Made by a program: the position numbers and the translations under genes
Notes under the pieces: model-generated
Databases searched by the model: none
Told to the model about the DNA's origin: nothing
The model's input: only the letters and a program-made list of their open reading frames with translations
Assembly (NCBI RefSeq): GCF_024648885.1
Contig: NZ_JANBBF010000008.1
Span: 868,001-932,000 of the forward strand
From: Prauserella salsuginis
GTDB lineage: Bacteria > Actinomycetota > Actinomycetes > Mycobacteriales > Pseudonocardiaceae
Length of the DNA: 64,000 nt
Direction: 5' to 3'
Shown: in pieces, positions 44,169 to 57,790 of the stretch
Layout: each line of letters starts with the position of its first letter
How positions within the stretch are numbered: the stretch's first letter is position 1

Positions 44169-45161
44169 TCAGGGGTCCCTGCGATGCCGGCCAGGCCGCC
44201 GCGGCGGCGGATGCGGCGCCGCGGCGGGGCGGTCGCGAGGCGCGGGAGGACGCGGCATCGGTCGCGGGATCCCGCGCTCCCCCGGCCCGCCGGGCGCGCG
44301 GTGCCTGCCCTCTCCGGTGCTCTGCGGCGGGGTGGAGTGCCGCTGCGGAAACTGCGGCTGCGGAGCGTGCGGTTGCGGAGGGGCCGGCGGCGGGGCCGGC
44401 GGAGACGGCGACTGGGATGAGGGGCGCTGGTATGAGGGGCGCTGGGGTGACGGCCGCTGGGCGGGCGCACCCGGCGCCCCGGGAGCCGGTCGTGGCCGTG
44501 GCGAGGCAGGGGGCCGCTGCGGCGCCGGAGGTCGTGGCGGCGCCGGAGGTCGGGGCCAGGCGGACGGCGACCCCGGAGACGGTGGCTCGGCAGGCGGTGT
44601 TCCTGGAGCCGGCGATTCGGGAACGGCCGGACCCGGCGCGGTGGCAGGCCCCTGGGCAGCCGACGAACGGGGCGAGCCCGACAGGTCCGGCCGGATGCCC
44701 GCGACGAAGGCCTGGAAGTCGCCGATCAGTTCGGCCAACTGTGCGGGCGTGGCCGTCATCACGATGTTCACGACGAGCAGCCGCCCGGTACCCGTGCGCT
44801 CGGCGACCGTGAGGAAGGTCTGCAGCTGAGCCAGGTCGGTGAGCTCGCCACCGGTGCGCACCCGCACGCCGAGCGCCTGCGTGAGGCTGCCGCTGGTGCG
44901 GCCGCCGGCACGTTCGCGCCTGCCGACCGTGACCGCGGCCGCCGTCCCGGCGAGACGGTGCGCGGTCTCGTCGGCGAGCTCGTCGAGACCCGCACCGTCC
45001 TCGCGCACCCCGCCGGTCACGGCGATCGTCGCGGTGAAGCCCGCACTCGAACCGGGGTGCACCGCCAGGAATTCCGTGTCCGGGGCGCCGGCCTGCGCAG
45101 GCGGCACCGAGCGCCACCCGTCGGGCAGGATGAATTCGATCGGAACCGGCAGCATCGTCAC
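44169..45161 (-). CDS. ESX-locus associated protein with long Pro-rich tail
   Basis: 330 residues. The GTG start (45161) overlaps the stop of the upstream gene. Residues 1-160 are a compact alpha/beta domain (PVPIEFILPDGWRSVPP, FLAVHPGSSAGFTATIAVTGG, LAQLQTFLTVAERTG, LLVVNIVMTATPAQLAELIGDFQAFVAGI) resembling the LpqN/DUF1795 fold that follows WXG genes in actinobacteria. Residues 165-330 are almost pure Pro/Ala/Ser/Arg, probably unstructured. No signal peptide is seen. Function unknown. Confidence 0.6.
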   Translation of the reverse strand: MTMLPVPIEFILPDGWRSVPPAQAGAPDTEFLAVHPGSSAGFTATIAVTGGVREDGAGLDELADETAHRLAGTAAAVTVGRRERAGGRTSGSLTQALGVRVRTGGELTDLAQLQTFLTVAERTGTGRLLVVNIVMTATPAQLAELIGDFQAFVAGIRPDLSGSPRSSAAQGPATAPGPAVPESPAPGTPPAEPPSPGSPSAWPRPPAPPRPPAPQRPPASPRPRPAPGAPGAPAQRPSPQRPSYQRPSSQSPSPPAPPPAPPQPHAPQPQFPQRHSTPPQSTGEGRHRAPGGPGERGIPRPMPRPPAPRDRPAAAPHPPPRRPGRHRRDP

Positions 45162-46396
45162 CAGCCCAGGTCGCGCACCATCGAGCCGACGGTGTCGGCC
45201 GCTCCGGTGACGGATTCGGTGACCTGGGCGGGGTCGATGGCGATCCCGCCGCCGAGCCTGCCGCCCAGTCCGAGCCCGATCCCGAGGTCGCCGCCGACGT
45301 GGAACTTGCCGTCCTCACCCATGCCGAACGCGGCACCGGCCTCGGCGCCCGCGCCGGCCCAGCCCTCGGCGTTGACACCGGCTTCGACACCGGCGACCTC
45401 GACGGCGGCGCCGACGTCCGCCCGTCCGCCGGCGAACGCGTCGGCACCGATGTCGATACCGGTCAGGCCGACGTCGGCGTTGGCGTTGGCCGCCGCCTCG
45501 ACCGCCGCGTTGGCGTGGCCGTTGACGCCGAGTGGACCGGCGTCGAGGCCGCCTTCGGCACTGCCCCGGGCGGCATGTGCCTCGGCCCCGGCGCCCAGCG
45601 ACGCACCGGTGGCGTCGGCCGTCGCCTCGGCATCGGCGGATGCTCCGAGCAGGGAACCGCCGAGCATGCCCTGACCCCCGACCACGCTCGTGTCGAATTC
45701 GCCGCCGATCTCGCCCTCGGCGACACTCACGCCCGCTGCTGCCTGCGCGCTCGCACTGGGCAGCTGGATGCCGAGCGTGTCGACCAGCCGCGCGACGGGA
45801 TCCTCTTTCAGTCCCTGCTGACCGCCCCACGGCCGATCGATCCGACGTTCCCGGACCCGTTCATGCTCCCGGCTGTAGCCGCCCTGCCCGTCGGGCTGCA
45901 GCCCGAGCGTCGAGGCCAGCTGCGTGCCGGCCGCGTCGACGCGTTGCCGCGCGTGGTCGAGCACGGCCTGCGCCTCGGCCAACAGCCCGCCGCCCGGGTC
46001 GGCCTGCGGCGCCGGCGCGCCCGCCGCAGCGTGCATCTGGTGCTGCGCCGTCGCGGCGCGCCCGGCCGCCTGGGCCTGGGTGTGCAGCTCGATCGCGCGC
46101 TGCGCCTCGCCCTGCCCCCAGGCCAGCACGTCTGCGAAGTCCGCGAGCGTCTGCCCTCCCCTGGCGACCGTGTCGACCAGTTCCGTCCACTTCGGCGGTT
46201 CGGCGCCGAACGCGTCGCGGAACATGGTGCTCGCCTCGCCGATCCAGTGCTGCGGATCGATCTGCCCCAGCAGGCCGCCGACCTCGCCGACGGTGCCGAG
46301 GTTGCCGACGATCTGCCGCAGATCCTCGGCGATCTGCTCCGGGTGCCCCGGAACGAGCTGCTTCGGATCCGTCGTCTGCCCGAGCTGAGCGACCAT
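45158..46396 (-). CDS. Putative type VII-secreted protein with Gly/Ala-rich C-terminus
   Basis: 412 residues. The start ATG directly follows the upstream stop (TAGATG). Residues 1-130 are helical and WXG-like (HWIGEASTMFRDAFGAEPPKWTELVDTVARGGQTLADFADVLAWGQGEAQRAIELH), as in T7SS-targeted polymorphic proteins. Residues 225-400 are a striking Ala/Gly-rich region with alternating small and polar residues (NANADVGLTGIDIGADAFAGGRADVGAAVEVAG). There is no recognisable C-terminal toxin and no immunity gene. It could be a structural or surface protein; function unknown. Confidence 0.65.
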   Translation of the reverse strand: MVAQLGQTTDPKQLVPGHPEQIAEDLRQIVGNLGTVGEVGGLLGQIDPQHWIGEASTMFRDAFGAEPPKWTELVDTVARGGQTLADFADVLAWGQGEAQRAIELHTQAQAAGRAATAQHQMHAAAGAPAPQADPGGGLLAEAQAVLDHARQRVDAAGTQLASTLGLQPDGQGGYSREHERVRERRIDRPWGGQQGLKEDPVARLVDTLGIQLPSASAQAAAGVSVAEGEIGGEFDTSVVGGQGMLGGSLLGASADAEATADATGASLGAGAEAHAARGSAEGGLDAGPLGVNGHANAAVEAAANANADVGLTGIDIGADAFAGGRADVGAAVEVAGVEAGVNAEGWAGAGAEAGAAFGMGEDGKFHVGGDLGIGLGLGGRLGGGIAIDPAQVTESVTGAADTVGSMVRDLGW

Positions 46397-46759
46397 CTAC
46401 CGTCCCCCGTCCAGCACACTCGCGATCCGGCCCGGCTGCCCGCCGGACGCGGGTGCCTGCGGAGCCTGTGCCACGGCTTCCTGCAACCCGGAGAAGACGC
46501 TCAGGCCTTCCTGTTCCTGCTCCAGGTACCGGTCGGCGGCATCGCGCAATCCGCTGCCGTGCTCGTCGGCCCGCTCCCGGAGCGAGCGCAGCTGCTGTTC
46601 GACGTCCGCCATGAAGCCGGCCCACGCCGACTGGATGTCGCTGTGCCCGTAGTCGCCACCGGGTCCGTGCCAGGCGACGTCCGCCGCCCGCTCCACCGTC
46701 TCGGCGATCCGGCCCGCGGTCAGCCGCAGTTCGTCGGGCACCGCCCCGAAACCAGCCAT
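46397..46759 (-). CDS. WXG100-like small helical protein
   Basis: 120 residues from ATG 46759. A helix, a turn with W-x-G-like DVAWHGPGGDYGHSDIQSAWAGFMADVEQQLRSLRERADEHGSGLRDAADRYLEQEQ, then a second helix; this is the layout of ESX/EsxA-like substrates and their partners. First gene of a four-gene minus-strand set with the large Gly/Ala-rich protein, the Pro-rich protein and the YbaB-like protein. No secretion ATPase (EccC) is nearby, so any export would rely on a machine encoded elsewhere. Confidence 0.7.
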   Translation of the reverse strand: MAGFGAVPDELRLTAGRIAETVERAADVAWHGPGGDYGHSDIQSAWAGFMADVEQQLRSLRERADEHGSGLRDAADRYLEQEQEGLSVFSGLQEAVAQAPQAPASGGQPGRIASVLDGGR

Positions 46760-46889
46760 GCCATCCCCTGTGCCTCGTCGGCTCCGCCTGGCGCGGCGGA
46801 CCCGTGGGTTGCCGCGCTGCGCGCGATGCTGCCGGGGCGTGGTGGTTTCCCGGTGGTTCGCCGGTGGTTCGGCCGTCACACGGGCGCGA

Positions 46890-47903
46890 TCAGCCTGCGC
46901 GCGTGCTGTCCCGCACGACGAGCTTCGGCACCAGGGCGACGTGTGCGGCGTCGCGCGTGGCGGACCCGCCGCCGGCTGCGTCGGCCAGCAGCCGTACCGC
47001 CTCGTCGGCGATGCGCCGGGTCGGCTGGTCCACAGTGGTCAGCGGCGGCTCGGCCAGGCGGGTGAACTCGATGTTGTCGAACCCGGTGACCTGGACCTGA
47101 TCGGGGACGGCGATTCCCCTGGTGCGACAGGCACGCACGGCACCGAGCGCGATCAGGTCGTCGGCGCACACCAGCGCGTCCGGCAGCTGCCCGGCGTCGT
47201 GCAGCAGGCCCACCGCCCGTTCGCCCCACTCCACGCTGTAGTCGCCGAGCAAGGTCCACTGTGGATCCGTGGCGAGGTCGAACTCTTCGGCGTGCCGGCC
47301 GAACCCGGCGTGGCGCAACTCGCTCGACGAGTTCGTCAGCCGCGCACCGAGGTAGGCGGCCGAGCGCGCGCCGCCGGCCCGGACGTGGTCCAGGACGGCA
47401 CGCATCGCCGCCATGTCGTCCACCCCGACCCAGTCGGTGCTGGTCCCGCCGACGAAGCGGTCGAGCTGCACGAGCGGCAGGCGTTCGGCGGTCCGCTGCA
47501 CCGCGGCGGTGCTGTCGGTGCCGTGGCACGGGCTGACGATGATGCCGTCGACGTTGCGGGTCACGAGGGCGTCCAGGCGCTTGGCCTCGGTGTCGGGGTC
47601 GGACTGGGCGTCGCAGAGCAGTAGTTCCTTGCCGTCGGCCCCGAGCGCATGCTCGACGCTCTCCACCAGCGCGGTGAAGAAGGGATTCCGGATGCTCGGC
47701 ACCACCATGCCGACGGTGTCGGTGCGGCTCACCCGCAGCGCCCGCGCGATCGGGTTCACCTCGTAGCCGAGCTCCGTGGCGGCCGCCCGGACCCGTTCGG
47801 CGACGTCCGACGAGACCTTGCGCCCGCCCGACAGCGCACGGGAGACCGTGGCCGTCGAGACTCCGGCGCGGCGGGCAACGTCCGCGATGGTGACCCGGTG
47901 CAA
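46890..47903 (-). CDS. LacI family transcriptional regulator
   Basis: 337 residues from TTG 47903, chosen because GGAGAGG lies 7 nt upstream. HTH: VTIADVARRAGVSTATVSRALSGGRKVSSDVAERVRAAATELGYEVN, then a periplasmic-binding-like sensor domain (TDTVGMVVPSIRNPFFTALVESVEHALG, GVDDMAAMRAVLDHV, VTGFDNIEFTRLAEPPLTTV). Divergent from the eight-gene uptake/catabolic operon. The 12-mer GTAAACGATTGC overlaps its own start codon and a near copy sits upstream of the operon, so it probably represses both until the sugar-like inducer binds. Confidence 0.93.
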   Translation of the reverse strand: MHRVTIADVARRAGVSTATVSRALSGGRKVSSDVAERVRAAATELGYEVNPIARALRVSRTDTVGMVVPSIRNPFFTALVESVEHALGADGKELLLCDAQSDPDTEAKRLDALVTRNVDGIIVSPCHGTDSTAAVQRTAERLPLVQLDRFVGGTSTDWVGVDDMAAMRAVLDHVRAGGARSAAYLGARLTNSSSELRHAGFGRHAEEFDLATDPQWTLLGDYSVEWGERAVGLLHDAGQLPDALVCADDLIALGAVRACRTRGIAVPDQVQVTGFDNIEFTRLAEPPLTTVDQPTRRIADEAVRLLADAAGGGSATRDAAHVALVPKLVVRDSTRAG

Positions 47904-47911
47904 TCGTTTAC
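47900..47911. promoter_or_regulatory. LacI-type operator overlapping the lacI-family start
   Basis: GCAATCGTTTAC differs by one base from GCAATCGATTAC at 48021, and has the central CG of LacI-family operators. It covers the TTG start and its ribosome-binding region. Confidence 0.6.
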
Positions 47912-47974
47912 CTCTCCGTCGTGGGTGAAACCGGAACTTAATCGGTTCCCCTGGCACGAGTCCAGGCTAGACCA

Positions 47975-48004
47975 TTGACCTTCCACTGAAAGCCTCTCTA
48001 ACGT
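47975..48004 (+). promoter_or_regulatory. Candidate promoter of the eight-gene operon
   Basis: TTGACC (47975-47980) is 18 bp from TAACGT (47999-48004). The operator-like palindrome at 48021 lies just downstream of the expected start site, suited to a roadblock. Confidence 0.4.
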
Positions 48005-48020
48005 ACTCCGCAATTCGCTG

Positions 48021-48032
48021 GCAATCGATTAC
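48021..48032. promoter_or_regulatory. LacI-type operator upstream of the eight-gene operon
   Basis: GCAATCGATTAC, a near-palindrome around ATCGAT, is 155 bp ahead of the first operon gene. It is followed by two AGTCAGTTGCA direct repeats (48049 and 48066, 17 bp apart). Confidence 0.6.
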
Positions 48033-48186
48033 ACGACTTGCCCACCGGAGTCAGTTGCAGACCGAAGTCAGTTGCACACCCGAGTCACCGTTCCCGCGGT
48101 GCACACCCGTCGGCGGCCGTGTCGAAGCCGTGGTCGCCGAACCCACTTCCCCGAGCATCCCCGCCCACCGAGCACAGAGAGCACAG

Positions 48187-49041
48187 ATGAGCACTCTCGG
48201 AGTCTTCCCTCCCAAACCGCACGCCCTGCGTGAGCTGTTCGGCACCGACAAGGTCGTGATCGGCGTCGTGCACCTGCCCGCCCTGCCCGGCAGTCCGCAC
48301 TACACCGGAGCCCCGATGGCCGACATCCGCACGTTCGCCGTGGAAGAGGCCCGCGCCTACCTCGACGGCGGATGCCACGGCGTCATCGTGGAGAACCACT
48401 GGGACATCCCGTTCCCGAAGCCCGGAAGACACGGCTACGAAACGTCGGCCGCGATGGCCGTCGTCACCGCCGCGGTGCGCGACGCGACAGACGGCGGCGT
48501 CGGCGTGAGCGTGCTGTCCAACGCCGCCGAGTGCGCGATCGCCTCCGCCTGGTCCGGCGGCGGCGGGTTCGTGCGGGTCAACCAGTGGGCCAACGCCTAC
48601 GTCGCCAACGAGGGCATCATCGAAGGCCAGGCTGCCGACGCCACGCGCTACCGCAGCCGCATCGGCGCGGGCCCGGTCAAGGTGTTCGCCGACGTCCACG
48701 TCAAGCACGGCGCCCATGCGATCGTCGCCGACCGGACACTGGCCGAGCAGACCGAGGACGCCGAGTTCTTCGACGCCGACGTGCTCATCGCCACCGGTTC
48801 CCGCACCGGGGACGCCGCGGCCGTCGACGAGGTGGCCGGCATCAAGGAGCACACGAGCCTGCCCGTCGTCATCGGCTCCGGAATCACCGCGGGCAACATC
48901 GGCGAGCTGCTGCCCGCCTGCGACGGCGTCATCGTGGCCTCGTCGGTGAAAGACAACGGCCGCTGGTGGGGCCGGGTCGATCCGGCCAAGGTCCGCGAAC
49001 TGACCACGGCAGCCGAGCGGGCGGGCGCGGTTCTGCCGTGA
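48187..49041 (+). CDS. BtpA/SgcQ family TIM-barrel protein
   Basis: 284 residues from ATG 48187. VVIGVVHLPALPGSPHY, GGCHGVIVENHWDIPFPKPG, GVSVLSNAAECAIASAWSGGGGFVRVNQWANAYVANEGIIEG and LPVVIGSGITAGNIGELLPACDGVIVAS match the BtpA/SgcQ family. Family chemistry is not established; members sit in sugar operons (sgcQ in E. coli) and in photosystem-assembly contexts in cyanobacteria. First gene of the operon; it overlaps the kinase gene by 4 bp. Confidence 0.9.
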   Translation: MSTLGVFPPKPHALRELFGTDKVVIGVVHLPALPGSPHYTGAPMADIRTFAVEEARAYLDGGCHGVIVENHWDIPFPKPGRHGYETSAAMAVVTAAVRDATDGGVGVSVLSNAAECAIASAWSGGGGFVRVNQWANAYVANEGIIEGQAADATRYRSRIGAGPVKVFADVHVKHGAHAIVADRTLAEQTEDAEFFDADVLIATGSRTGDAAAVDEVAGIKEHTSLPVVIGSGITAGNIGELLPACDGVIVASSVKDNGRWWGRVDPAKVRELTTAAERAGAVLP

Positions 49042-49982
49042 TCGTGTTCTGCGGGTACGCCAACAGCGACGTCACGGCAGCGGTGCCGGCCCTGCCCGCC
49101 GCAGGGCAGCGGATCCAGGCCGTGGCGGTCGAGCGGGGCGACGGCGGCATGGCGGCCAACGCCGCGGCCGCCGCCGCCCGCCTCGGCGCCGACGCCCGGT
49201 TCGCCGGTGCGGTCGGTGCCGACGCCCTGTCGACGGCCTTCCTCGACACCCTCGCCGCCGACGGCGTCGACGTGAGCCCGACGCGCCGGAACGCGCAGCT
49301 GACGACCGCGCTCGTACTGCTCACCCCGGACGGGGAACGGTCGATCATCAGCCAGGACGACGACCTCGACGGCACCGACATCGCCGAGGCGGCCAGGCAA
49401 GCGGCCGGCGGCTGGCTCTACCTGGACGGCTACCGCTTTCCCGACGCCGCGTCGGTCCTGCCGGACAGCGCCGCGTCGGTCCTGCCGGACAGGGCGCGGG
49501 TGGTGGTCGATCTCGACGGCTGCGAGACCCGGTCCGCGGCAATCGCCGCGCTCGGCGCCGCCGAGCACGTCGTGCTCGGGCGCACCCAGGCGACCGCGCT
49601 GCTCGGCGACGACGACGCCTGGGCGCAGCTGGCCCAGCGCCACGACGTCCACGTGGTCGTCACCGACGGCGGCCGCGGGGCGCTACTCGTCCCGCCGGAA
49701 GGACCGCCGCAGCAGATACCGCCGATCGACGTGTCCGTTGTGGACTCGACGGGCGCTGGCGACTGCTTCGTCGGCGCCTACTGCACCGAACTCGCACGCG
49801 ACGCCTCGCCCGCGAGCGCCGCCCGGTTCGCGGCCGTGGCCGCGGGCCTGTCCTGCACGCGCGCGGGTGCGCGCGCCGGACTTCCGTACCGCGCCGCGGT
49901 GCTGTCCCGTCTCGAAGCCGGCGGATCCGGCCCGGACACCGGTTCACCCGGAAAGGAGCGAACACCATGCGACGCAAGCTGA
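49038..49982 (+). CDS. PfkB family carbohydrate/nucleoside kinase
   Basis: 314 residues, starting GTG 49038 in the stop of the previous gene (GTGA). Ribokinase fold: N-terminal GDGGMAANAAAAAARLGADARFAGAVG and the C-terminal PfkB signature with anion hole and catalytic Asp, DSTGAGDCFVGAYCTEL (about residue 235-250). Expected to phosphorylate the imported sugar or nucleoside. Odd feature: residues around 137-152 contain two consecutive AASVLPD(S/R) units made by a 24-bp tandem duplication. Its stop overlaps the start of the binding-protein gene. Confidence 0.92.
   Translation: MIVFCGYANSDVTAAVPALPAAGQRIQAVAVERGDGGMAANAAAAAARLGADARFAGAVGADALSTAFLDTLAADGVDVSPTRRNAQLTTALVLLTPDGERSIISQDDDLDGTDIAEAARQAAGGWLYLDGYRFPDAASVLPDSAASVLPDRARVVVDLDGCETRSAAIAALGAAEHVVLGRTQATALLGDDDAWAQLAQRHDVHVVVTDGGRGALLVPPEGPPQQIPPIDVSVVDSTGAGDCFVGAYCTELARDASPASAARFAAVAAGLSCTRAGARAGLPYRAAVLSRLEAGGSGPDTGSPGKERTPCDAS
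49446..49493. repeat. 24-bp tandem duplication inside the PfkB kinase gene
   Basis: Units 49446-49469 and 49470-49493 are identical except for the last base. The duplication is in frame and encodes AASVLPDS then AASVLPDR. Confidence 0.95.
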
Positions 49983-50980
49983 TCGCGCTCGCCGCACTGG
50001 GGGTACTGCTCGTCGCCACGGCCTGCGACACCGCGGCGAGGCGCGAAATGGCGGCAGAGGCGCGCGCGCAGCAGCAGGGCCCGCCCCCGCCGTCCGAGGT
50101 GGCCGAATCCTGCGAGGTCGACGGGGGCCGGCCGAAGATCGGCGTCGTGCCGATCAACCTGCAGGCGCTGTTCTTCAACCAGATCATCACCGGCGCCGAG
50201 GACGTCGCCCAGCAGGCTGGGGTCGACGTGCAGGTCGTCAACGGGGACGACGATTCGCAGAAGCAGGCGAACGCGATCGACGACCTCGTGGCCAACAACT
50301 TCGACGCGATCATCGTCGACGCGGTCGACACCGACGGCATCAGGCCCGCGATCCGCCGGGCCGACGCCGCCGGGGTGCCGGTGGTCGCCGTCGACGCCGT
50401 CGTCGACGACGAGGCGGTATCGACGCAGGTGGGCACGGCGAACGTCGAAGGCGGCCGGCAACTCGGCGAGCAGCTGCTGAAACTCAGCGGCGGCGACGGC
50501 GACGTCGGGATCGTGGGTGCGCTCAACAGCACCGTGCAGCTCCAACGGCAGAAGGGTTTCACCGACCGTGTGACCGAGGGCGGCATGGCGATCCGGCACG
50601 TCGTGGACGGGCGCAACATCCAGGAGCAGGCCCAGACCGTGGCCGAGAACCTGCTCACCGGGAATCCCGATCTGCCGTACGCCTACGCGACCGGCGAACC
50701 GGCACTCATCGGCCTCGCCGCGGCGGTCGCGAGCCAACAGCGCAGCGACGACATCGAGGTCGTCGGCTGGGACCTGTCGGCACAGGCGGTCGACGGGCTG
50801 CGCGCAGGCTGGATCAAGGGCGTCGTGCAGCAGAACACGTTCGAGTTCGGCTATCAGTCGATGAACGCGGCGATCGACCTGGTCTGCGGACGCGACGTGC
50901 CCGCGGACGTTCCGGTGCCGACCCAGATCGTCACCCCGGAGAACGTGTCCGAGTACCTCTACTACCTGGAGCGGGGATGA
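49967..50980 (+). CDS. Sugar ABC transporter substrate-binding lipoprotein
   Basis: 337 residues from ATG 49967 with GGAAAGGAG upstream. Lipobox LLVATAC puts the mature N-terminus at about residue 20. Family: periplasmic-binding-protein type 1, RbsB-like. PKIGVVPINLQALFFNQIITGAEDVAQQAGVDVQVVNGDDDSQKQANAIDDLVANNFDAIIVD and IEVVGWDLSAQAVDGLRAGWIKGVVQQNTFEFGYQ show the two-lobed fold with hinge. It would capture the operon's substrate outside the cell. The ligand cannot be deduced from sequence. Confidence 0.92.
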   Translation: MRRKLIALAALGVLLVATACDTAARREMAAEARAQQQGPPPPSEVAESCEVDGGRPKIGVVPINLQALFFNQIITGAEDVAQQAGVDVQVVNGDDDSQKQANAIDDLVANNFDAIIVDAVDTDGIRPAIRRADAAGVPVVAVDAVVDDEAVSTQVGTANVEGGRQLGEQLLKLSGGDGDVGIVGALNSTVQLQRQKGFTDRVTEGGMAIRHVVDGRNIQEQAQTVAENLLTGNPDLPYAYATGEPALIGLAAAVASQQRSDDIEVVGWDLSAQAVDGLRAGWIKGVVQQNTFEFGYQSMNAAIDLVCGRDVPADVPVPTQIVTPENVSEYLYYLERG

Positions 50981-51756
50981 TGAGTCACGAGAGCACCGAT
51001 GCCCGGGCCGGCGACACGCTCGTCACGCTCGAGGGCATCACGAAGTCGTTCGGCGCGGTGCAGTCACTGCGCGGGGTCGATCTCCGGCTGGGCGCAGGCG
51101 AGGTGCTCGGCCTCGTCGGCGACAACGGCGCGGGGAAGTCCACCCTGATGAAGGTGCTGGCCGGGGCGATCCGGCACGACGCGGGCTCGATCACCGTGGG
51201 CGGCAGGCAGGTGCGGTTCCACAGCCCTGCCGACGCCCGCAGCGAGCACATCGGCATCGTCTATCAGGACCTGGCCCTGTGCGACACGCTCGACGTCGCC
51301 AGCAACCTGTTCCTCGGCAGGGAACCGCGCCGGGGGCCGTTCGTCGACCGCGGCGAGATGCACCGGCAGGCCGCCGAGATGCTGTCCACATTGCACGTGC
51401 GGGTGCGCTCGACGCACCAGGAGATCGGCGAGCTGTCCGGCGGGCAACGGCAGGCGGTCGCGATCGCGCGCGCCGTGTCGTTCCAGCCGAAGGTGCTGAT
51501 CCTCGACGAGCCGACGGCCGCCCTGGCGGTCGCCGAGGTGCGGCAGGTGCTGCGCATGATCCGCGAGGTCGCCGCCCGCGGTGTCGGCGTCATCCTCATC
51601 ACCCACCGGCTGCAGGACCTGTTCGAGGTGTGCGACCGCATCACGGTGATGTACGAGGGGCGGAGCGTGGAGGACGCCGCGATCGCCGACCTCGACATCG
51701 AGACGCTCGTCGGGATGATCACCCGCTCGAACACGACGACCGAGGAGGCCGCATGA
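50977..51756 (+). CDS. Sugar-type ABC transporter ATP-binding protein (single domain)
   Basis: 259 residues; the ATG at 50977 overlaps the previous stop, and a second ATG at 50980 is possible. Walker A LVGDNGAGKSTLMKVLAG, signature ELSGGQRQAVAIARAV, Walker B VLILDEPTAAL and H-loop ILITHRLQDLF are intact. Unlike RbsA/XylG (about 500 residues, two ATPase halves) this is a single-domain form of the same type, as in frcA-like systems, and would act as a homodimer. Confidence 0.93.
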   Translation: MMSHESTDARAGDTLVTLEGITKSFGAVQSLRGVDLRLGAGEVLGLVGDNGAGKSTLMKVLAGAIRHDAGSITVGGRQVRFHSPADARSEHIGIVYQDLALCDTLDVASNLFLGREPRRGPFVDRGEMHRQAAEMLSTLHVRVRSTHQEIGELSGGQRQAVAIARAVSFQPKVLILDEPTAALAVAEVRQVLRMIREVAARGVGVILITHRLQDLFEVCDRITVMYEGRSVEDAAIADLDIETLVGMITRSNTTTEEAA

Positions 51757-52775
51757 CGACGCAGGTCGAGTCCCCGCCGCAGCGGGACCTGGCGGCGGAG
51801 CCGTCGTGGTGGGAACGGGTGAACAAGGCGACCGTCGCGATGCTCGGCGTCACGGTGGCGCTGTTCATCGGGTTCGGCCTGGCGTCGCCGAACTTCCTGA
51901 CGTTCGACAACATGTCGAACCTGGCGACGCAGGTGGCGATCACGCTGATCGTGGCGATCGCGATGACGTTCGTGATCACGACGGGGCAAATCGACCTGTC
52001 GGTCGGCTCCACGGTCGCGTTCGTCGCGGCGATGACCGCCGAGCTGCTGCAGCTGGGTCTCGATTCGTCGCTCGTCATCGTGGTGGGTCTGCTGGCCGGC
52101 CTGTTCTGGGGTTCGGTCAACGGCTGGCTGTCGGCGTACCAGAACATCCCGCCGTTCATCGTCACCCTCGCCGCGATGTCGATCATCCGCGGATTCGCTC
52201 TGCTGTGGACGGAGGGATTCTCGGTCCCCATCGACCGGCGGCTGTTCGTCGCGAAAATCGGCGAGGCCGAGTTCCTCGGGTTCTCGGCGCTGGCGTGGAT
52301 CGCGCTGGCCACCGCCGTGGTCGGCGGGATCCTGTTGTCGCGCATGCGCTTCGGCCGCTACGTCAACGGCATCGGCGCACAGGAGGAGTCGGTGCGCCGT
52401 GCGGGTGTGAACACCCGCCGCATCAAGATGATCACGCTGATGCTGACGGGACTCGCGGCGGGAGCGGCGGGCATTCTCACGGCGGCGCGGCTCGGTTCCG
52501 GATCCGCGAACGCGGCGGAGGGCTTCGAGCTCACGGTGATCGCGGCGGTGGTGCTGGGCGGCACGAACCTGTTCGGCGGTCGCGGCACGATCGTCGGCAC
52601 CGTGATCGGCGCACTGATCACCGGCATGATCGCCAACGGCCTGACGTTGATGGGTGTGAGCCCGTTCCTCACGCCGATCGTGACGGGTCTGGTGCTGATC
52701 GCAGCGATCTGGATCAACCTGCGCGGGCGGTCGCTGGCCCAGCTGTTCTCCCACCTGACGGCGCGGCGCACATGA
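51753..52775 (+). CDS. Sugar-type ABC transporter permease
   Basis: 340 residues, overlapping the ATPase stop (ATGA). About nine to ten hydrophobic helices, with the RbsC/BPD-type segments ITTGQIDLSVGSTVAFVAAMTAELL, PPFIVTLAAMSIIRGFALLWTEG, FGRYVNGIGAQEESVRRAGVNTRRIKM (coupling loop) and VIAAVVLGGTNLFGGRGTIVGTVIGALI. Acts as a homodimer in the membrane with the adjacent ATPase and binding protein. One permease gene only. Confidence 0.93.
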   Translation: MTTQVESPPQRDLAAEPSWWERVNKATVAMLGVTVALFIGFGLASPNFLTFDNMSNLATQVAITLIVAIAMTFVITTGQIDLSVGSTVAFVAAMTAELLQLGLDSSLVIVVGLLAGLFWGSVNGWLSAYQNIPPFIVTLAAMSIIRGFALLWTEGFSVPIDRRLFVAKIGEAEFLGFSALAWIALATAVVGGILLSRMRFGRYVNGIGAQEESVRRAGVNTRRIKMITLMLTGLAAGAAGILTAARLGSGSANAAEGFELTVIAAVVLGGTNLFGGRGTIVGTVIGALITGMIANGLTLMGVSPFLTPIVTGLVLIAAIWINLRGRSLAQLFSHLTARRT

Positions 52776-53812
52776 CCGCCGTCACCACGGTCACCGGCCC
52801 GGTGCCCGCCGCCCAGCTCGGGCTGACCCTCACGCACGAGCATCTGCACAACGACGTGCGGGCCGCGGTCGGCCCTCCCGCCGACCCCGGGCTGGCGTGG
52901 TTGCGTGACGCCGAGACCGATTCTCGGATCGCATGGTTGCTGCGCGAGGAGCCCTACGCGTGCCTGGACCACTGCACGCTGGACGATCCGGGACCGGTGG
53001 CCGACGACCTGGCCGCGTTCGCCGCGGCGGGCGGCGGCACGGTCGTCGACGTCACGCCACCGGGCCTGGGCAGGGATCCGCTGGTACTCAAGGAACTGTC
53101 CGAACGCACCGGAGTGCGGATCATCATGGGATCGGGTTGGTACCTGGAGAACTTCCATCCTCCCGGACTGTCCACAACGGACGAATCTGGACTGGCGGCA
53201 GCGCTGCTCGACGAGTTCCGGAGCGGGGCCGGTGGCACGGGCATCTCCCCCGGGGTCATCGGCGAGATCGGCGTCTCCCCCGCCTTCACCGACGCCGAAC
53301 GTCTCGCGCTGCGCGCAGCCGCCGTCGCGCAACGCGAGGCCGGCGTCCCGCTGTACGTGCACCTGCCGGGATGGCAGCGCCGGGCCCACGAGGTGCTCGA
53401 CATCGTCCTCGACGAGGTCGGCGCGGCACCCGGGGCCGTCGTGTTGTGCCACATGGACCCGTCCGGCCACGACGTCGACTACCAGCGGTCGGTCGCACGG
53501 CGCGGCGTGTGGCTGGAGTTCGACATGATCGGCATGCCGTTCCGCTACCCCGGTGAAGGCCAGTCGCCCGCGCCCGCCGACACGGCACGGGCGGTCGCCG
53601 GACTGATCACCGACGGATTCGGCGACCGGCTGCTGCTCAGCCACGACGTGTTCCTCAAGAGCATGCTCACCGTGCACGGCGGCAACGGTTTCCGGTACGT
53701 CCCGACACTGTTCACCGCGCGCCTGCACGAGCTCGGCGTGCCCGCCGACGTGACGTCGGCGCTGCTGCGCGCCAACCCGCCGCGGCTGTTCGAGGCCGCC
53801 GCGGGCGGCTGA
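52772..53812 (+). CDS. Phosphotriesterase-like metal-dependent hydrolase
   Basis: 346 residues, start overlapping the permease stop. Amidohydrolase/PTE fold: LGLTLTHEHLHND (metal His-x-His, about residue 20), GVIGEIGVSPAFT with a Glu in the place of the carboxylated Lys bridge, VPLYVHLPGWQRRAHEVLD, GAVVLCHMDP (His) and RLLLSHDVF (catalytic Asp). PTE relatives in sugar operons hydrolyse phosphorylated sugar lactones; here a lactone or ester derived from the imported compound is the likely substrate (inference). Confidence 0.85.
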   Translation: MTAVTTVTGPVPAAQLGLTLTHEHLHNDVRAAVGPPADPGLAWLRDAETDSRIAWLLREEPYACLDHCTLDDPGPVADDLAAFAAAGGGTVVDVTPPGLGRDPLVLKELSERTGVRIIMGSGWYLENFHPPGLSTTDESGLAAALLDEFRSGAGGTGISPGVIGEIGVSPAFTDAERLALRAAAVAQREAGVPLYVHLPGWQRRAHEVLDIVLDEVGAAPGAVVLCHMDPSGHDVDYQRSVARRGVWLEFDMIGMPFRYPGEGQSPAPADTARAVAGLITDGFGDRLLLSHDVFLKSMLTVHGGNGFRYVPTLFTARLHELGVPADVTSALLRANPPRLFEAAAGG

Positions 53813-53945
53813 GGGCCCACCGGCGCGCTGTACCACCAGCCCGATTCTCCACCGATCCGCTGCCCCACCGAGACCCGCTGTCCTACCAACCCGCACCCGA
53901 CCCCGAGACGGGGCGTCAACCAGCAACCAGAAAGGGAAAATCTCC

Positions 53946-54689
53946 GTGGCACGAGTACTGATCGCCGGTGAAAGCTGGATCACGCAGTCCACCCACATCA
54001 AGGGAGTGGACTCGTTCGTCACGAGTTCGTACGTGGAAGGCGTCGCTCCGCTGCGGACGGCACTGACCGCACGGGGGCACGACGTCGTGCACCTGCCCGC
54101 GCACCTCGTGCCGTCGGACTTCCCCGAGGACCAGGCGGCGCTGGAGGCCTACGACGTCGTCGTGCTGTCCGACATCGGCGCGAACTCGGTGCAGCTCGCA
54201 CCGGCGGTCTTCGAAGGGGCACGCCCCGGCGGCGACCGTCTCGCCGCACTGCGCGACTGGGTCGACGCGGGCGGCGGCCTGCTGATGGTGGGCGGCTACC
54301 TGTCGTTCACCGGGTTCGAGGCGAAGGCCGCCTACCGCAACACGGTCCTGCACGAGGTGCTGCCGGTGGACCTGCTGCCCGAGGACGACCGGGTGGAGCT
54401 GCCGGCGGGCGCCCACGGGCAGGTCGTCGCCGAGCATCCGGCCCTCGGCGACGTGAGTGGCGAGTGGCCGCGCCTGCTCGGCTACAACCGGGTGCGCCCA
54501 CGGCCTGCCACCGAGATCCTCGCGACGATCGGCGACGACCCGCTCGTCGCTGTCGGCGGCTACGGCGAGGGCCGCACCGCCGTGTTCACCTCCGACTGCT
54601 CGCCGCACTGGGCCCCACCCGAGTTCTGCGAACAATGGCCCGGCTACGCGGCCGTGTTCGGCGGCCTGATCGACTGGCTCGCGGCGTGA
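53946..54689 (+). CDS. Glutamine amidotransferase-like (ThuA/DUF1355-type) protein
   Basis: 247 residues from GTG 53946 with AGAAAGGGAAAA upstream, 133 bp after the hydrolase gene. Class I amidotransferase-like fold: ARVLIAGESWITQSTHIKGVDSFVTSSYVEG, LEAYDVVVLSDIGANSV, WVDAGGGLLMVGGYLSFTGF and VGGYGEGRTAVFTSDCSPHWAPPEF. The nucleophilic Cys position normally after GGG is not occupied (LLMVGGY), so it may be a binding rather than hydrolytic protein. Role in the operon unknown. Confidence 0.75.
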   Translation: MARVLIAGESWITQSTHIKGVDSFVTSSYVEGVAPLRTALTARGHDVVHLPAHLVPSDFPEDQAALEAYDVVVLSDIGANSVQLAPAVFEGARPGGDRLAALRDWVDAGGGLLMVGGYLSFTGFEAKAAYRNTVLHEVLPVDLLPEDDRVELPAGAHGQVVAEHPALGDVSGEWPRLLGYNRVRPRPATEILATIGDDPLVAVGGYGEGRTAVFTSDCSPHWAPPEFCEQWPGYAAVFGGLIDWLAA

Positions 54690-55318
54690 GCCGGTCGCGT
54701 CACCTCCTGCATACCTGCGAACCCGCACTCGAGCGGGCGGCCGGCATGCGGTTCGTCCGAGACGTCCACGACGGCACGATCGGCGAGCCGGAGTACGCAC
54801 GGTATCTGGAGTTCGAGGCCGGATTCGTCGACACCGCGGCACGACTGCACGGGCTCGCGGTGTGGCAGGCACCGCACTGGCGGGCCGTCACCCGCAACGC
54901 CGGCGCCCTGCACGGACTGACGACCGAGCAGACCGAGTACTTCGCGGCCGCGCGCGCGGCGTGGCCCGTCGCAGCCGAGGTGTCCGACGCGGCACGGCGC
55001 GCCGCGTCGGTGCTGTCGGACTACGCCGTCGCGGCCGCCGAGGACGGCGGCTACCCGGCCGTCACCACGGTTCTGTTCGCCGCGGAGACGCTGTATCTGA
55101 CCTGGTGCACCCGTGCCCACCGCGACGGGACGCCCCCCGCGGGTCCGATCGCCGACTGGGTCGCCCTGCACACCCGCGACCCGTTCGTCTCCGGCGTCGA
55201 CGCGCTCGGCGCAGCCGTCGACGAACTGCCCGCCGACGTACCCGACGACCGTCTCGCCGCGTGGTTCACCGGCATGCTCGACGCCGAGATCAGCTTCCAC
55301 GACGCGGTGTACCTGTAA
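54686..55318 (+). CDS. TenA/thiaminase-2-like helical protein
   Basis: 210 residues, GTG 54686 in the stop of the previous gene (GTGA). All-helical TenA-like profile: FVRDVHDGTIGEPEYARYLEFEAGFVDTAARLHGLAVWQAP, EQTEYFAAARAAWP, LFAAETLYLTWCTRAH and WFTGMLDAEISFHDAVYL, with Glu and Tyr residues placed as in the pyrimidine-binding pocket. The usual Cys of thiaminase-2 (C135 in B. subtilis) is not obvious. TenA hydrolyses aminopyrimidines in thiamine salvage; here it may act on another heterocycle. Last gene of the operon. Confidence 0.75.
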   Translation: MSRSRHLLHTCEPALERAAGMRFVRDVHDGTIGEPEYARYLEFEAGFVDTAARLHGLAVWQAPHWRAVTRNAGALHGLTTEQTEYFAAARAAWPVAAEVSDAARRAASVLSDYAVAAAEDGGYPAVTTVLFAAETLYLTWCTRAHRDGTPPAGPIADWVALHTRDPFVSGVDALGAAVDELPADVPDDRLAAWFTGMLDAEISFHDAVYL

Positions 55319-55524: not shown

Positions 55525-55989
55525 TCAGTCTCCTGCCAGCTCGGGAGGGAATCCGCCGGTCGCGATCGGACCCCAGTCATCGATCGTGATCCGCAACAGG
55601 GACTTGCCCTGCCGCTGCATCGCCTCGCGGTACTCGTCCCAGTCGGGGTGTTCCCCGGAGATGCAGCGGAAGTACTCGACGAGACCGTCGAGCGCATCGG
55701 GCATGTCGAGCACCTCGGCAGTGCCGTCGAGCTGTACCCAGGCGTCGTTCCACTCCTCGGAGAGCACGCACAACGACACGGTCGGGTTCCGCCGCGCGTT
55801 GCGGGTCTTCGCTCGGCTCGGGTACGTGGAGATGACGACCCGGCCGCTCTCGTCCACACCACAGGTGACCGGCGACAGCTGTGGCCTGCCGTCGGTTCGC
55901 GTCGTCATCAGCACCGTGCGGTGGCGCGGCCGCACGAACTCCAGGAGCGTGTCCCTGCCGACCCGTTCGGCGGTGGCGATGCGTGGCAA
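55525..55989 (-). CDS. PPOX-class (F420/FMN-binding split-barrel) oxidoreductase
   Basis: 154 residues from TTG 55989 with AGGAGG 8 nt upstream. Split-barrel flavin/F420 family: LLEFVRPRHRTVLMTTRTDGRPQLSPVTCGVDESGRVVISTYPSRAKTRNARRNPTVSLCVL, then WVQLDGTAEVLD and WDEYREAMQRQGKSLLRITIDDWGP. Typical of actinobacterial F420-dependent enzymes of the PPOX class. Substrate unknown. Monocistronic. Confidence 0.88.
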   Translation of the reverse strand: MPRIATAERVGRDTLLEFVRPRHRTVLMTTRTDGRPQLSPVTCGVDESGRVVISTYPSRAKTRNARRNPTVSLCVLSEEWNDAWVQLDGTAEVLDMPDALDGLVEYFRCISGEHPDWDEYREAMQRQGKSLLRITIDDWGPIATGGFPPELAGD

Positions 55990-56688: not shown

Positions 56689-56920
56689 GTTCGCGCAGTT
56701 GTCTGGCGCGAGTCAAAGAAAGCCGACTCCTGGGCGCCTAAACCTTCTCCCGGAAAACGATCTGTGTTCCACGACACCGATCCGTGACTTTTCCGTTGCT
56801 GTTTCGTAATCTCTCGGAAGGTGTTCGCGACAACCCCGCGTGTTCCCCAGCACGGTCGCGACCCTGCCGATCCGGAACCCCGACCGGTCGGCACGCGAAA
56901 CAAAAAAGGAGAACCACCCC

Positions 56921-57790
56921 GTGGAGTGGAACGACATCCCCCGGAACGCGAAGAACATCTTCGCGCGAAAGGCCCTGACCCCGAGTTCCCCGAAGCTGAA
57001 CGCCTCCTTGAAGGAGAGTGTCCGCGGCTACGCCGCCGTCGGACTCCTCGCCACCGCCCTCGCCGGAGTGGTCGGCCAGGCCGCGTTCGCCGACGAGGAG
57101 GTCAACCCGGCCGCAACCCAGCGCACCGCTGATTCGGCGGTGCAGAACGCCGGCGTGGTCCGTGCGCACAGCCACTTCGGCGTCGCCCAGCTCGGCGAGA
57201 AGGCCTCCGATTCCCAGAAGTCCAACGATTCCGGGAAGTCCGAGCAGAACGGCGGTTCCGGTGGCCAGGCCCAGCCCGCGGGCCAGGCCGACGAAGACAG
57301 CAAGCAGCAGGCCGATCAGCAGCAGGCCCAGCCGCAGCAGGCCCAGCCGCAGCAGAAGCAGCAGGCCGACAAGCAGGCGCAGAACCAGCCCGCCCCGAAG
57401 GCCAAGCCCAAGCCTGCGCCGAAGCCGCAGTTCGACCAGGTCGACCGCTGGATCAACCGTGCGATCGACATCCTGCGGCAGAACAACGTCGAGATCACCC
57501 ACGAGAAGCGGGACGAGATCCGCACGATCATCGAGAAGGAGTCGAGCGGAGACCCGCGGGCCATCAACCTGTGGGACAGCAACGCGGCCAAGGGCATCCC
57601 GTCGAAGGGCCTGATGCAGACCATCGACCCGACGTTCGACGCCCACAAGCTGGCGGGCCACGACGACATCTACAACCCGGTCGACAACATCATCGCCGGT
57701 GTCCGGTACACGCTGGACCGCTACGGCAACTTCGACGAGCACCCCGGCCTCGCCTCGATGGCCGGTGGCGGTGACTACCAGGGTTACTGA
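56921..57790 (+). CDS. Secreted lysozyme/transglycosylase-like (SLT/Rpf-type) protein
   Basis: 289 residues from GTG 56921, preceded by AAGGAG at good spacing. A long signal region (VRGYAAVGLLATALAGVVGQAAFA, cleavage after AFA about residue 58) is followed by a Gln/Ala/Pro/Lys-rich linker (about 100-170, QQAQPQQAQPQQKQQ). The C-terminal domain FDQVDRWINRAIDILRQNNVEITHEKRDEIRTIIEKESSGDPRAINLWDSNAAKGIPSKGLMQTIDPTFDAHKL has the SLT Glu in EKESSGDP and the GLMQTI motif. Expected to cut peptidoglycan glycan strands outside the cell. Long leader suggests post-transcriptional control. Confidence 0.85.
   Translation: MEWNDIPRNAKNIFARKALTPSSPKLNASLKESVRGYAAVGLLATALAGVVGQAAFADEEVNPAATQRTADSAVQNAGVVRAHSHFGVAQLGEKASDSQKSNDSGKSEQNGGSGGQAQPAGQADEDSKQQADQQQAQPQQAQPQQKQQADKQAQNQPAPKAKPKPAPKPQFDQVDRWINRAIDILRQNNVEITHEKRDEIRTIIEKESSGDPRAINLWDSNAAKGIPSKGLMQTIDPTFDAHKLAGHDDIYNPVDNIIAGVRYTLDRYGNFDEHPGLASMAGGGDYQGY

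Follow-up and report, generated by a model that had tools for sequence, protein, structure and literature searches.

A co-inherited LacI-associated uptake and catabolic operon of Prauserella salsuginis that possibly acts on a ribose-type conjugate

Which compound is taken up and broken down by an operon that joins a ribose-type importer and a PfkB kinase to four additional enzymes? The question is raised by a 64,000-nucleotide stretch of the Prauserella salsuginis genome (hereafter called the window), which sits in contig C1 of a 15-contig, 5.6-Mb genome. A divergent lacI gene on the minus strand lies opposite eight plus-strand genes (48187-55318) in the order btpA, pfkB, solute-binding protein (SBP), ATPase, permease, phosphotriesterase-family hydrolase (PTE), GATase1_like and TenA-like. 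An earlier model-generated reading of the DNA, hereafter the original prediction, described these nine genes as a candidate uptake and catabolic system, and all nine are present as described. Our analyses confirm that the operon is a real, co-inherited unit, and in this respect the overall interpretation stands, although the enzymatic roles offered for the PTE, TenA-like and amidotransferase-like proteins do not. As a tentative reading, we propose that the operon imports and breaks down, under LacI control, a conjugate of a ribose-type (pentofuranosyl) unit with a nitrogen-bearing group.

The gene set is not a chance assembly, as its recurrence among 80 BtpA loci and in a survey of 298 genomes from the order to which the window belongs shows. 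A BtpA profile (alignment A1) searched against named species genomes recovered at least 591 stretches, at least 576 of them confirmed, and the best 80 loci were analysed. As best matches these are biased to close relatives, and 19 of them are flagged as incomplete around BtpA. Profiles of the nine genes and of two M20 peptidase types, made from the window and plasmid-borne relatives, were then mapped on the 80 loci with score thresholds that we chose. All nine genes are found in 47 loci, as expected if the whole set is conserved, and the order and strands of the window are kept in 44 of these. The same-order loci belong to 15 actinobacterial genera or groups (Prauserella, Actinomadura, Streptomyces, Rhodococcus, Rhodococcoides, Modestobacter, Pseudonocardia, Saccharopolyspora, Amycolatopsis, Murinocardiopsis, Nocardiopsaceae, Klenkia, Geodermatophilus, Blastococcus and Actinoallomurus); among the matches listed, the nearest named BtpA relatives are from Prauserella species (92-96% identity). 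The remaining three nine-gene loci, from Burkholderia (L100), Rhizobium (L102) and Acidisoma (L083), are rearranged, and versions of the set in other orders are seen among Alpha-, Beta- and Gammaproteobacteria. Annotated whole sets were also found in a plasmid collection, in Pannonibacter (L011), Pantoea (L014), Paracoccus (L016), Ponticoccus (L020), Roseivivax (L022) and Rhizobium (L023, in which lacI was recognised by profile, and L104).

For the order survey, the best candidates per genome were scored, with an orthologue level for BtpA of E<1e-70 (our choice) and a PTE threshold of E<=1e-30. BtpA was detected in 31 genomes (18 at orthologue level), the GATase-like gene in 33, PTE in 30 and the TenA-like gene in 17. 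The four occur together in 16 of the 298 genomes, on a single contig in 14 and split over contigs in two (G235 and G393). All 17 genomes with the TenA-like gene also hold an orthologue-level BtpA, including G020, which carries the pair without a GATase-like gene. Independent occurrence in related genomes, which the original prediction had named as evidence against it, is therefore seen in part: 17 of the 33 genomes with a GATase-like gene lack the set, whereas the TenA-like gene always accompanies BtpA. Among these 17 set-less genomes, PTE adjoins the GATase-like gene or lies about 1 kb away in five (G189, G230, G261, G348 and G359), and a distant BtpA (29% identity) adjoins it in two (G243 and G322). 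From this pattern of co-occurrence, BtpA and TenA form a tight pair, and GATase-PTE is a module that can be reused. Four of six other genomes of the genus carry the GATase-like gene, and the 16 of 298 genomes in the order amount to a sporadic spread; both would fit repeated gain by transfer and loss. A phylum-wide survey (149 genomes; BtpA in five, GATase-like in four) was too thin and was left unused. In one same-genus genome, the GATase-like gene is matched in two pieces, as if frame-shifted (G002:C8:152646-153464).

The genes also diverge together. Pairwise distances across 25 loci correlate for BtpA with PTE (0.93), GATase (0.94) and TenA (0.89), and in 16 actinobacterial loci for BtpA with PTE (0.90), TenA (0.90), permease (0.91) and GATase (0.82), values that carry no control for the species tree.

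Sequence comparison establishes a co-inherited set with a CUT2 importer, a PfkB kinase, a conserved operator and intact PTE metal ligands, around which the following steps can be arranged. The lipoprotein would capture the conjugate and the ATP-binding cassette (ABC) importer would bring it in. PTE and the TenA-like protein (elsewhere an M20 amidase) would cleave ester, amide or C-N bonds of the attached group, and PfkB would phosphorylate the sugar. BtpA, with a putative phosphate-binding end like that of TrpA, ThiE or HisF, may then split or rearrange the phosphosugar, feeding pentose metabolism. The GATase-like protein, which would be no amidotransferase, probably has the sugar part as its ligand or substrate, and LacI would repress locally until the compound or an intermediate lifts the repression. 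The original prediction envisaged a glycosylated heterocycle broken into a sugar and a base by way of a phospholactone; a glycosylated compound split in two survives from that model, but the evidence supports neither the heterocyclic base nor the phospholactone.

The importer and the kinase were anticipated correctly. The domains PF13407, PF00005 and PF02653 occur together in the operon, which identifies a CUT2 ABC importer. The nearest solved relative of the SBP is 5HSG (241.6 bits with the window protein, 410.5 bits with the Pannonibacter protein), which we take to be an apo structure, and the PDB relatives that follow are sugar-binding proteins, mostly ribose-binding. Aligned with 2gx6, the Pannonibacter SBP keeps F15, F16, D89, N105, R141, D215 and Q235, presumably ribose-ligand positions of RbsB, and the window SBP, read by eye, is the same as the Pannonibacter protein at the ribose-ligand positions. 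We lean towards a pocket that would accept a ribose-like core and leave space for a substituent. 5HSG is given as a Klebsiella pneumoniae protein in a partial text of one report (PMC12459267). The kinase retains the D242 motif of the PfkB superfamily, kept in at least 95% of 80 sequences. Its substrate could not be named from NCBIfam or the PDB, where the best matches are ribokinase and sulfofructose kinase, all weak; the ribokinase model TIGR02152 is not passed (126.6 bits, cut-off 299.65). The arrangement resembles rbs and other CUT2 (ribose/fructose-type) import-kinase operons in its LacI-type regulator, binding lipoprotein, ABC ATPase, BPD_transp_2 permease and PfkB kinase. It differs in having a single-domain ATPase and four additional enzymes, and in that no part reaches an equivalog cut-off.

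A ribose-type sugar is plausible, though we would not yet call it probable, because several observations coincide with the ribose-binding relatives of the SBP and its kept RbsB ligands. The NCBIfam models nearest to LacI are GntR, PurR, CytR, RbsR and UriR, each below its cut-off. Arthrobacter L076 has a ribokinase-like gene at the place of TenA (250 bits, again under the cut-off of 299.65). In Trueperaceae L085 (10001-12912), an IF-2B-family gene and a SIS-domain gene come after BtpA, and the IF-2B family includes ribose- and methylthioribose-1-phosphate isomerases.

LacI appears to be a local regulator. In 42 of the 44 same-order loci (not L035 or L049), the 450 nt upstream of btpA contain a palindrome with the core AATCGATT, compared with 17 of 8800 shuffled regions. 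By shuffling, 0.01 matches to the operator pattern are expected in the window, and with a degenerate pattern that differs slightly the whole genome yields one exact match. This single match and the recurrence of the core are the reasons to regard LacI as a putative local repressor. Several proteobacterial loci carry AGTAAAnCGnTTTACT-like palindromes in place of AATCGATT; this comparison took the best three CG-centred palindromes per locus, and in some loci, among them the window, an unrelated palindrome scored equally or higher.

BtpA passes its subfamily model TIGR00259 (198.8 bits, cut-off 153.4) and, as a PF03437 member, belongs to the BtpA/SgcQ family. It shares 27% identity with an Escherichia coli match that is unannotated in its record and is presumably sgcQ, and it does not pass the model for photosystem I BtpA (178.9 bits, cut-off 400). 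A 2024 paper in New Phytol., judged by its title, reportedly links cyanobacterial BtpA to tetrapyrrole biosynthesis. The BtpA/SgcQ family is named in passing in the portion of a further report that was consulted (PMC11433714). The predicted structure (predicted local distance difference test, pLDDT, 88.4, with a weak stretch at 138-145) has fold neighbours at TM-scores of about 0.5-0.6, headed by ThiE and including TrpA, HisF/HisA, RPE, GGGP synthase, KDPGal aldolase, class II aldolases and others. A reaction could not be named by fold, since ThiE, TrpA, HisF, RPE and the aldolases are all similar and give no single answer. Most of these neighbours act on phosphorylated substrates, and pfkB lies within 1.5 kb of btpA in 69 of the 80 loci. 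For these two reasons, we consider it probable that the substrate includes a sugar and that phosphorylation of this sugar precedes the action of BtpA. TrpA matches BtpA residues 197-277 in a profile search, and this part is taken as the putative phosphate end. Polar residues invariant in 28 sequences include E69, N70, D73, R130, N132, Q133, N136, N141, E142, D169, H171, K173, H174, H177, D182, R183, T203 and T207, and the G230-S231-G232 loop is likewise invariant. Separately, one stretch in Sagittula (L019, 3717-11463) holds two BtpA paralogues, PfkB, TenA, RidA, an (S)-ureidoglycine aminohydrolase and a Zn-dependent hydrolase, a combination which hints that a nitrogen compound resembling ureides may be handled there.

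The PTE protein matches 3rhg (298 bits) and 3k2g (293 bits) over nearly its full length. Its two-metal site is represented by H22 and H24 (the H-x-H motif), E165, H197, H227 and D292, each at least 95% conserved in 64 sequences; the ligand roles of H197, H227 and D292 are our assumption. We also take 3k2g to be Rsp3690, and a 2026 paper is said to concern N-acetyl-beta-alanine and PTER. In the part consulted of the work on PTER, this enzyme is an N-acetyltaurine hydrolase with modelled metal ligands H26, H28 and E169, and 3K2G is its top structural match (PMC11374699). The window protein is thus, by its predicted metal site, a PTER-like hydrolase. It shares the PTE family and metal ligands that include a Glu with PTER and with the bacterial esterases Pmi1525 (3rhg) and Rsp3690 (named in a partially consulted report, PMC5341072), but differs from all three in its setting within an import and kinase operon.

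These features bear on the phospholactone step that had been assigned to PTE, and on the related possibility that the operon serves a sugar acid or lactone, in which an oxidised or lactonised sugar would be opened as a (phospho)lactone by PTE and cleaved by a BtpA aldolase, with the TenA-like protein contributing a side activity. Aldolases are among the fold neighbours of BtpA, and the phospho-furanose lactonase model NF045706 does match PTE weakly. However, that match reaches only 34.8 bits against a cut-off of 630, so the model is not passed, and the metal-site Glu is as in PTER. Furthermore, the nine-gene set has no dehydrogenase gene, and the recurring M20 amidases would be left unexplained. 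We therefore abandon the phospholactonase assignment and consider a lactone pathway quite unlikely.

The TenA-like protein matches no Pfam family at E 0.001 (PF03070 is not passed) and gives weak sequence matches only. Its AlphaFold prediction (pLDDT 96.5) has the TenA fold: Foldseek returned 41 matches at E<=0.001, of which ranks 1-35 are TenA/thiaminase-type and rank 36 is UndA, with a TM-score of 0.86 to 2gm8. Like TenA/thiaminase II it has a conserved Glu near the C-terminus (E201). However, it has no TENA_THI-4 hit, carries His205 after that Glu, and has A133-E134, by comparison with canonical TenA, at what we take to be the position of the thiaminase catalytic Cys. Both of these residues are invariant in 26 sequences, as are E44, Q82, Y137, W158, H162, E201 and H205. 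In the order survey this type occurs only with operon-type BtpA. It is the third, diverged TenA-type protein of the genome, in which two canonical TENA_THI-4 proteins that pass PF03070 are encoded elsewhere (C12:23744-24376 and C5:214041-214667).

Other hydrolases occupy the same position in related loci. No TenA is present in L018, L111 and L109, where an M20 gene follows BtpA in its place; the L018 protein, which was tested, is of the hydantoinase/carbamoylase type, and the same M20 type comes after TenA in L023 and L102. In L103 and L094, PTE and BtpA have an M20D-type gene between them. Three Bacillota loci (L082, L091 and L097) have M20 genes, a GATase-like gene and a kinase, with PTE and TenA absent by profile. 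In 36 of the 44 same-order loci, an M20 peptidase gene ends within 1.3 kb of lacI, the eight exceptions including four Prauserella; two of these lacI-side proteins were scanned and match ArgE/DapE-type models. Because TenA is swapped with unrelated hydrolase families, the analogy suggests that the TenA-like protein may carry out an amide- or C-N-hydrolysis step. The cleavage of a heterocyclic base previously ascribed to it is left without direct support, given the absent Cys, the M20 genes in the same place elsewhere and the two canonical TenAs. Since PTE is PTER-like and M20 genes recur beside lacI and after BtpA, we slightly favour removal of the attached part by amide, ester or C-N hydrolysis.

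Several observations weigh against a single pathway for a ribosyl conjugate. The kinase, transporter, PTE and regulator are under every equivalog cut-off shown, and ribose is therefore a lean and not a result; the nearest PDB relative of the kinase is sulfofructose kinase, and R90, N190 and N13, presumably also ribose-ligand positions of RbsB, are changed in the Pannonibacter SBP relative to 2gx6. The window operon has no adjoining M20 gene, the nearest homologue in the genome being unlinked (43% identity), and TenA, PTE and M20 occur together in 37 of the 80 loci, so they are not simple substitutes everywhere. In 14 of the 80 loci, several of which are short contigs, PTE, TenA and M20 are all unseen, and in Roseomonas a LacI-GATase-BtpA-PfkB group is accompanied by oligopeptide-type ABC genes. 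The remaining points would fit two pathways side by side, in which GATase-PTE(-M20) would handle one compound and PfkB-BtpA-TenA another under a shared regulator and importer. Both submodules are found alone with other transporters: GATase-transporter-PTE with PfkB (Proteus) or M20 (Streptomyces NBC_01471), and PfkB-BtpA-TenA without the other genes in 5 of the 80 loci, with an MFS transporter next to it in L060. The PTE and GATase-like neighbours in five set-less genomes of the order agree with this, as does weaker co-divergence involving PfkB and LacI in the 16 actinobacterial loci (BtpA-PfkB 0.52, PfkB-TenA 0.50, LacI-TenA 0.26). Against it, one order with overlapping genes is kept in 44 actinobacterial loci, and the full set also occurs in other orders in proteobacteria. 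We judge two pathways improbable, and one substrate for the whole operon highly probable.

The GATase1_like protein passes PF07090 (307 bits, cut-off 27), and like STM1381-type members of this family it matches 3soz and 2gk3 over nearly its full length. These entries name no function, whereas the window protein is tied to a kinase, PTE and importer. Its likeness to amidotransferases, noted in the original prediction, extends to the fold only. All 68 GATase-like sequences have G116-G117-Y118, which by the usual elbow pattern we take to be the class I nucleophile elbow, with Tyr in place of the nucleophile Cys; one sequence alone (L082) has a Cys within 110-124, at a position other than 118. An amidotransferase role was rejected for this reason. 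The family occurs in other contexts as well. On Rhodococcus aetherivorans pN1 (L021, 3849-12463), GATase-like, LacI and PfkB genes lie among genes for PRPP synthetase, nicotinate phosphoribosyltransferase, an LLM oxidoreductase and flavin reductase, with a succinate-semialdehyde dehydrogenase gene nearby, in what we assume is perhaps a pyridine-type catabolic cluster. On a Klebsiella plasmid (L106, 4402-10665), a GATase-like gene with nitrilase, M24 peptidase and ABC transporter genes and a LacI regulator is another amide-hydrolase context for PF07090.

The M20, M24 and nitrilase genes that accompany GATase-like genes could also point to a glycosylamine or an Amadori/opine-type substrate (a sugar plus an amino acid), in which the kinase would phosphorylate the sugar and amide hydrolases would free the amino acid. 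A diverged GATase-like gene does lie near fructoselysine-kinase, SIS and oxoprolinase genes on pTiA47a, but this gene (36% identity) is parted from them by a divergent LysR gene, and the nine-gene set lacks a SIS deglycase, leaving this substrate type very improbable. Finally, we give hardly any weight to salvage of the thiamin pyrimidine by TenA (on aminomethylpyrimidine) and M20 (on the formyl form), for although the TenA fold, ThiE as the top neighbour of BtpA and the partnership of an M20 amidohydrolase with TenA in Bacillus would agree with it, no thiamin pyrophosphate riboswitch reaches the Rfam gathering score in the window (only two tRNAs do), the TenA-like protein has lost what we take to be the thiaminase Cys and has Glu for the active-site Asp, two canonical TenAs are encoded elsewhere, and the importer is ribose-type and the control by LacI.

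Six of the seven junctions of the operon overlap, by 4 nt (btpA/pfkB, SBP/ATPase, ATPase/permease, permease/PTE and GATase-like/TenA-like) or 16 nt (pfkB/SBP), and the exception, as had been noticed, is the 133-nt gap ahead of the GATase-like gene. In the 55 of 57 listed relatives in which these two genes adjoin, the corresponding spacing ranges from -16 to +98 nt by scripted starts (L092 and L012, where the genes are non-adjacent, are omitted). A consensus scan of the 133-nt gap gave no promoter- or terminator-like site, and an operon boundary at this point was rejected; because the spacing varies among relatives, the gap is no meaningful break. The start of 47900 originally given for the system cuts through lacI and has to be replaced by the span in Table 1.

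Table 1. Genes and predicted regulatory sites of the operon, in window coordinates.
Feature	Position	Strand	Basis and remarks
lacI-family repressor	46890..47957	-	Pfam LacI and Peripla_BP_3; GTG start 47957, alternative TTG 47903
Second, weaker operator-like site	47899..47912	-	5' end of lacI; one mismatch to pattern
Predicted LacI operator GGCAATCGATTACA	48020..48033	.	Between lacI and btpA
BtpA/SgcQ-family TIM barrel	48187..49041	+	PF03437, 225 bits; proposed phosphosugar lyase or hydrolase
PfkB/ribokinase-superfamily sugar or nucleoside kinase	49038..49982	+	PF00294, 134 bits
CUT2-type solute-binding lipoprotein (SBP)	49967..50980	+	PF13407; homologue of 5HSG
Single-domain ABC ATPase	50977..51756	+	PF00005; aligns with first half of YtfR/RbsA-type ATPase models
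CUT2-type permease	51753..52775	+	PF02653, 146.6 bits
PTER-like metal-dependent hydrolase, phosphotriesterase family (PTE)	52772..53812	+	PF02126; best PDB matches 3rhg, 3k2g
GATase1_like protein without catalytic Cys	53946..54689	+	PF07090, 307 bits; PDB relatives 3soz, 2gk3
TenA-like protein, diverged active site, proposed C-N hydrolase	54686..55318	+	Predicted structure, Foldseek matches

Directly beyond lacI, at 45158-46879 on the minus strand, lie genes for a protein with a type VII secretion system (T7SS) secretion-signal domain (PF21725, 97.9 bits) and for a small partner protein that matches no Pfam family; this is the place taken by the M20 gene in 36 of the 44 same-order loci. Downstream of the operon are a PNPOx-family protein (55525-55989, minus strand) and a protein that combines an SLT transglycosylase domain with a Q/P-rich linker (56840-57790, plus strand), and no link of either to the operon was seen.

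Regulated ABC importers that are paired with a kinase are a familiar design, but the gene combination seen here is not. In keeping with the earlier statement that no characterised pathway has this exact set, no description of it was found in the open-licence full-text literature, from which absence from print is not established; many matches for the name BtpA concern a Brucella protein or photosynthesis. A bolder reading, which we regard as unlikely on balance, is that the operon encodes an unrecognised complete pathway for a ribosyl conjugate that is common in the environment, such as a modified nucleoside or a ribosyl-amide, transferred across at least Actinomycetota and Proteobacteria and reduced in Bacillota, with BtpA as a phosphoribosyl C-N or C-C lyase and the TenA relative as a catabolic amide hydrolase interchangeable with M20. 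To our knowledge, the BtpA family is known only from photosystem and tetrapyrrole phenotypes, and such a pathway, if true, would give it a chemical reaction. Five enzymes (BtpA, PfkB, the PTER-like hydrolase, the Cys-less GATase-like protein and the diverged TenA) have stayed together in bacteria that range from Prauserella and Streptomyces through to Rhizobium and Pantoea. The solved SBP homologue 5HSG and the sharp LacI operator make the ligand directly testable, and its identity would guide the assignment of functions for BtpA/SgcQ, PF07090 and a PTER-like clade at once.

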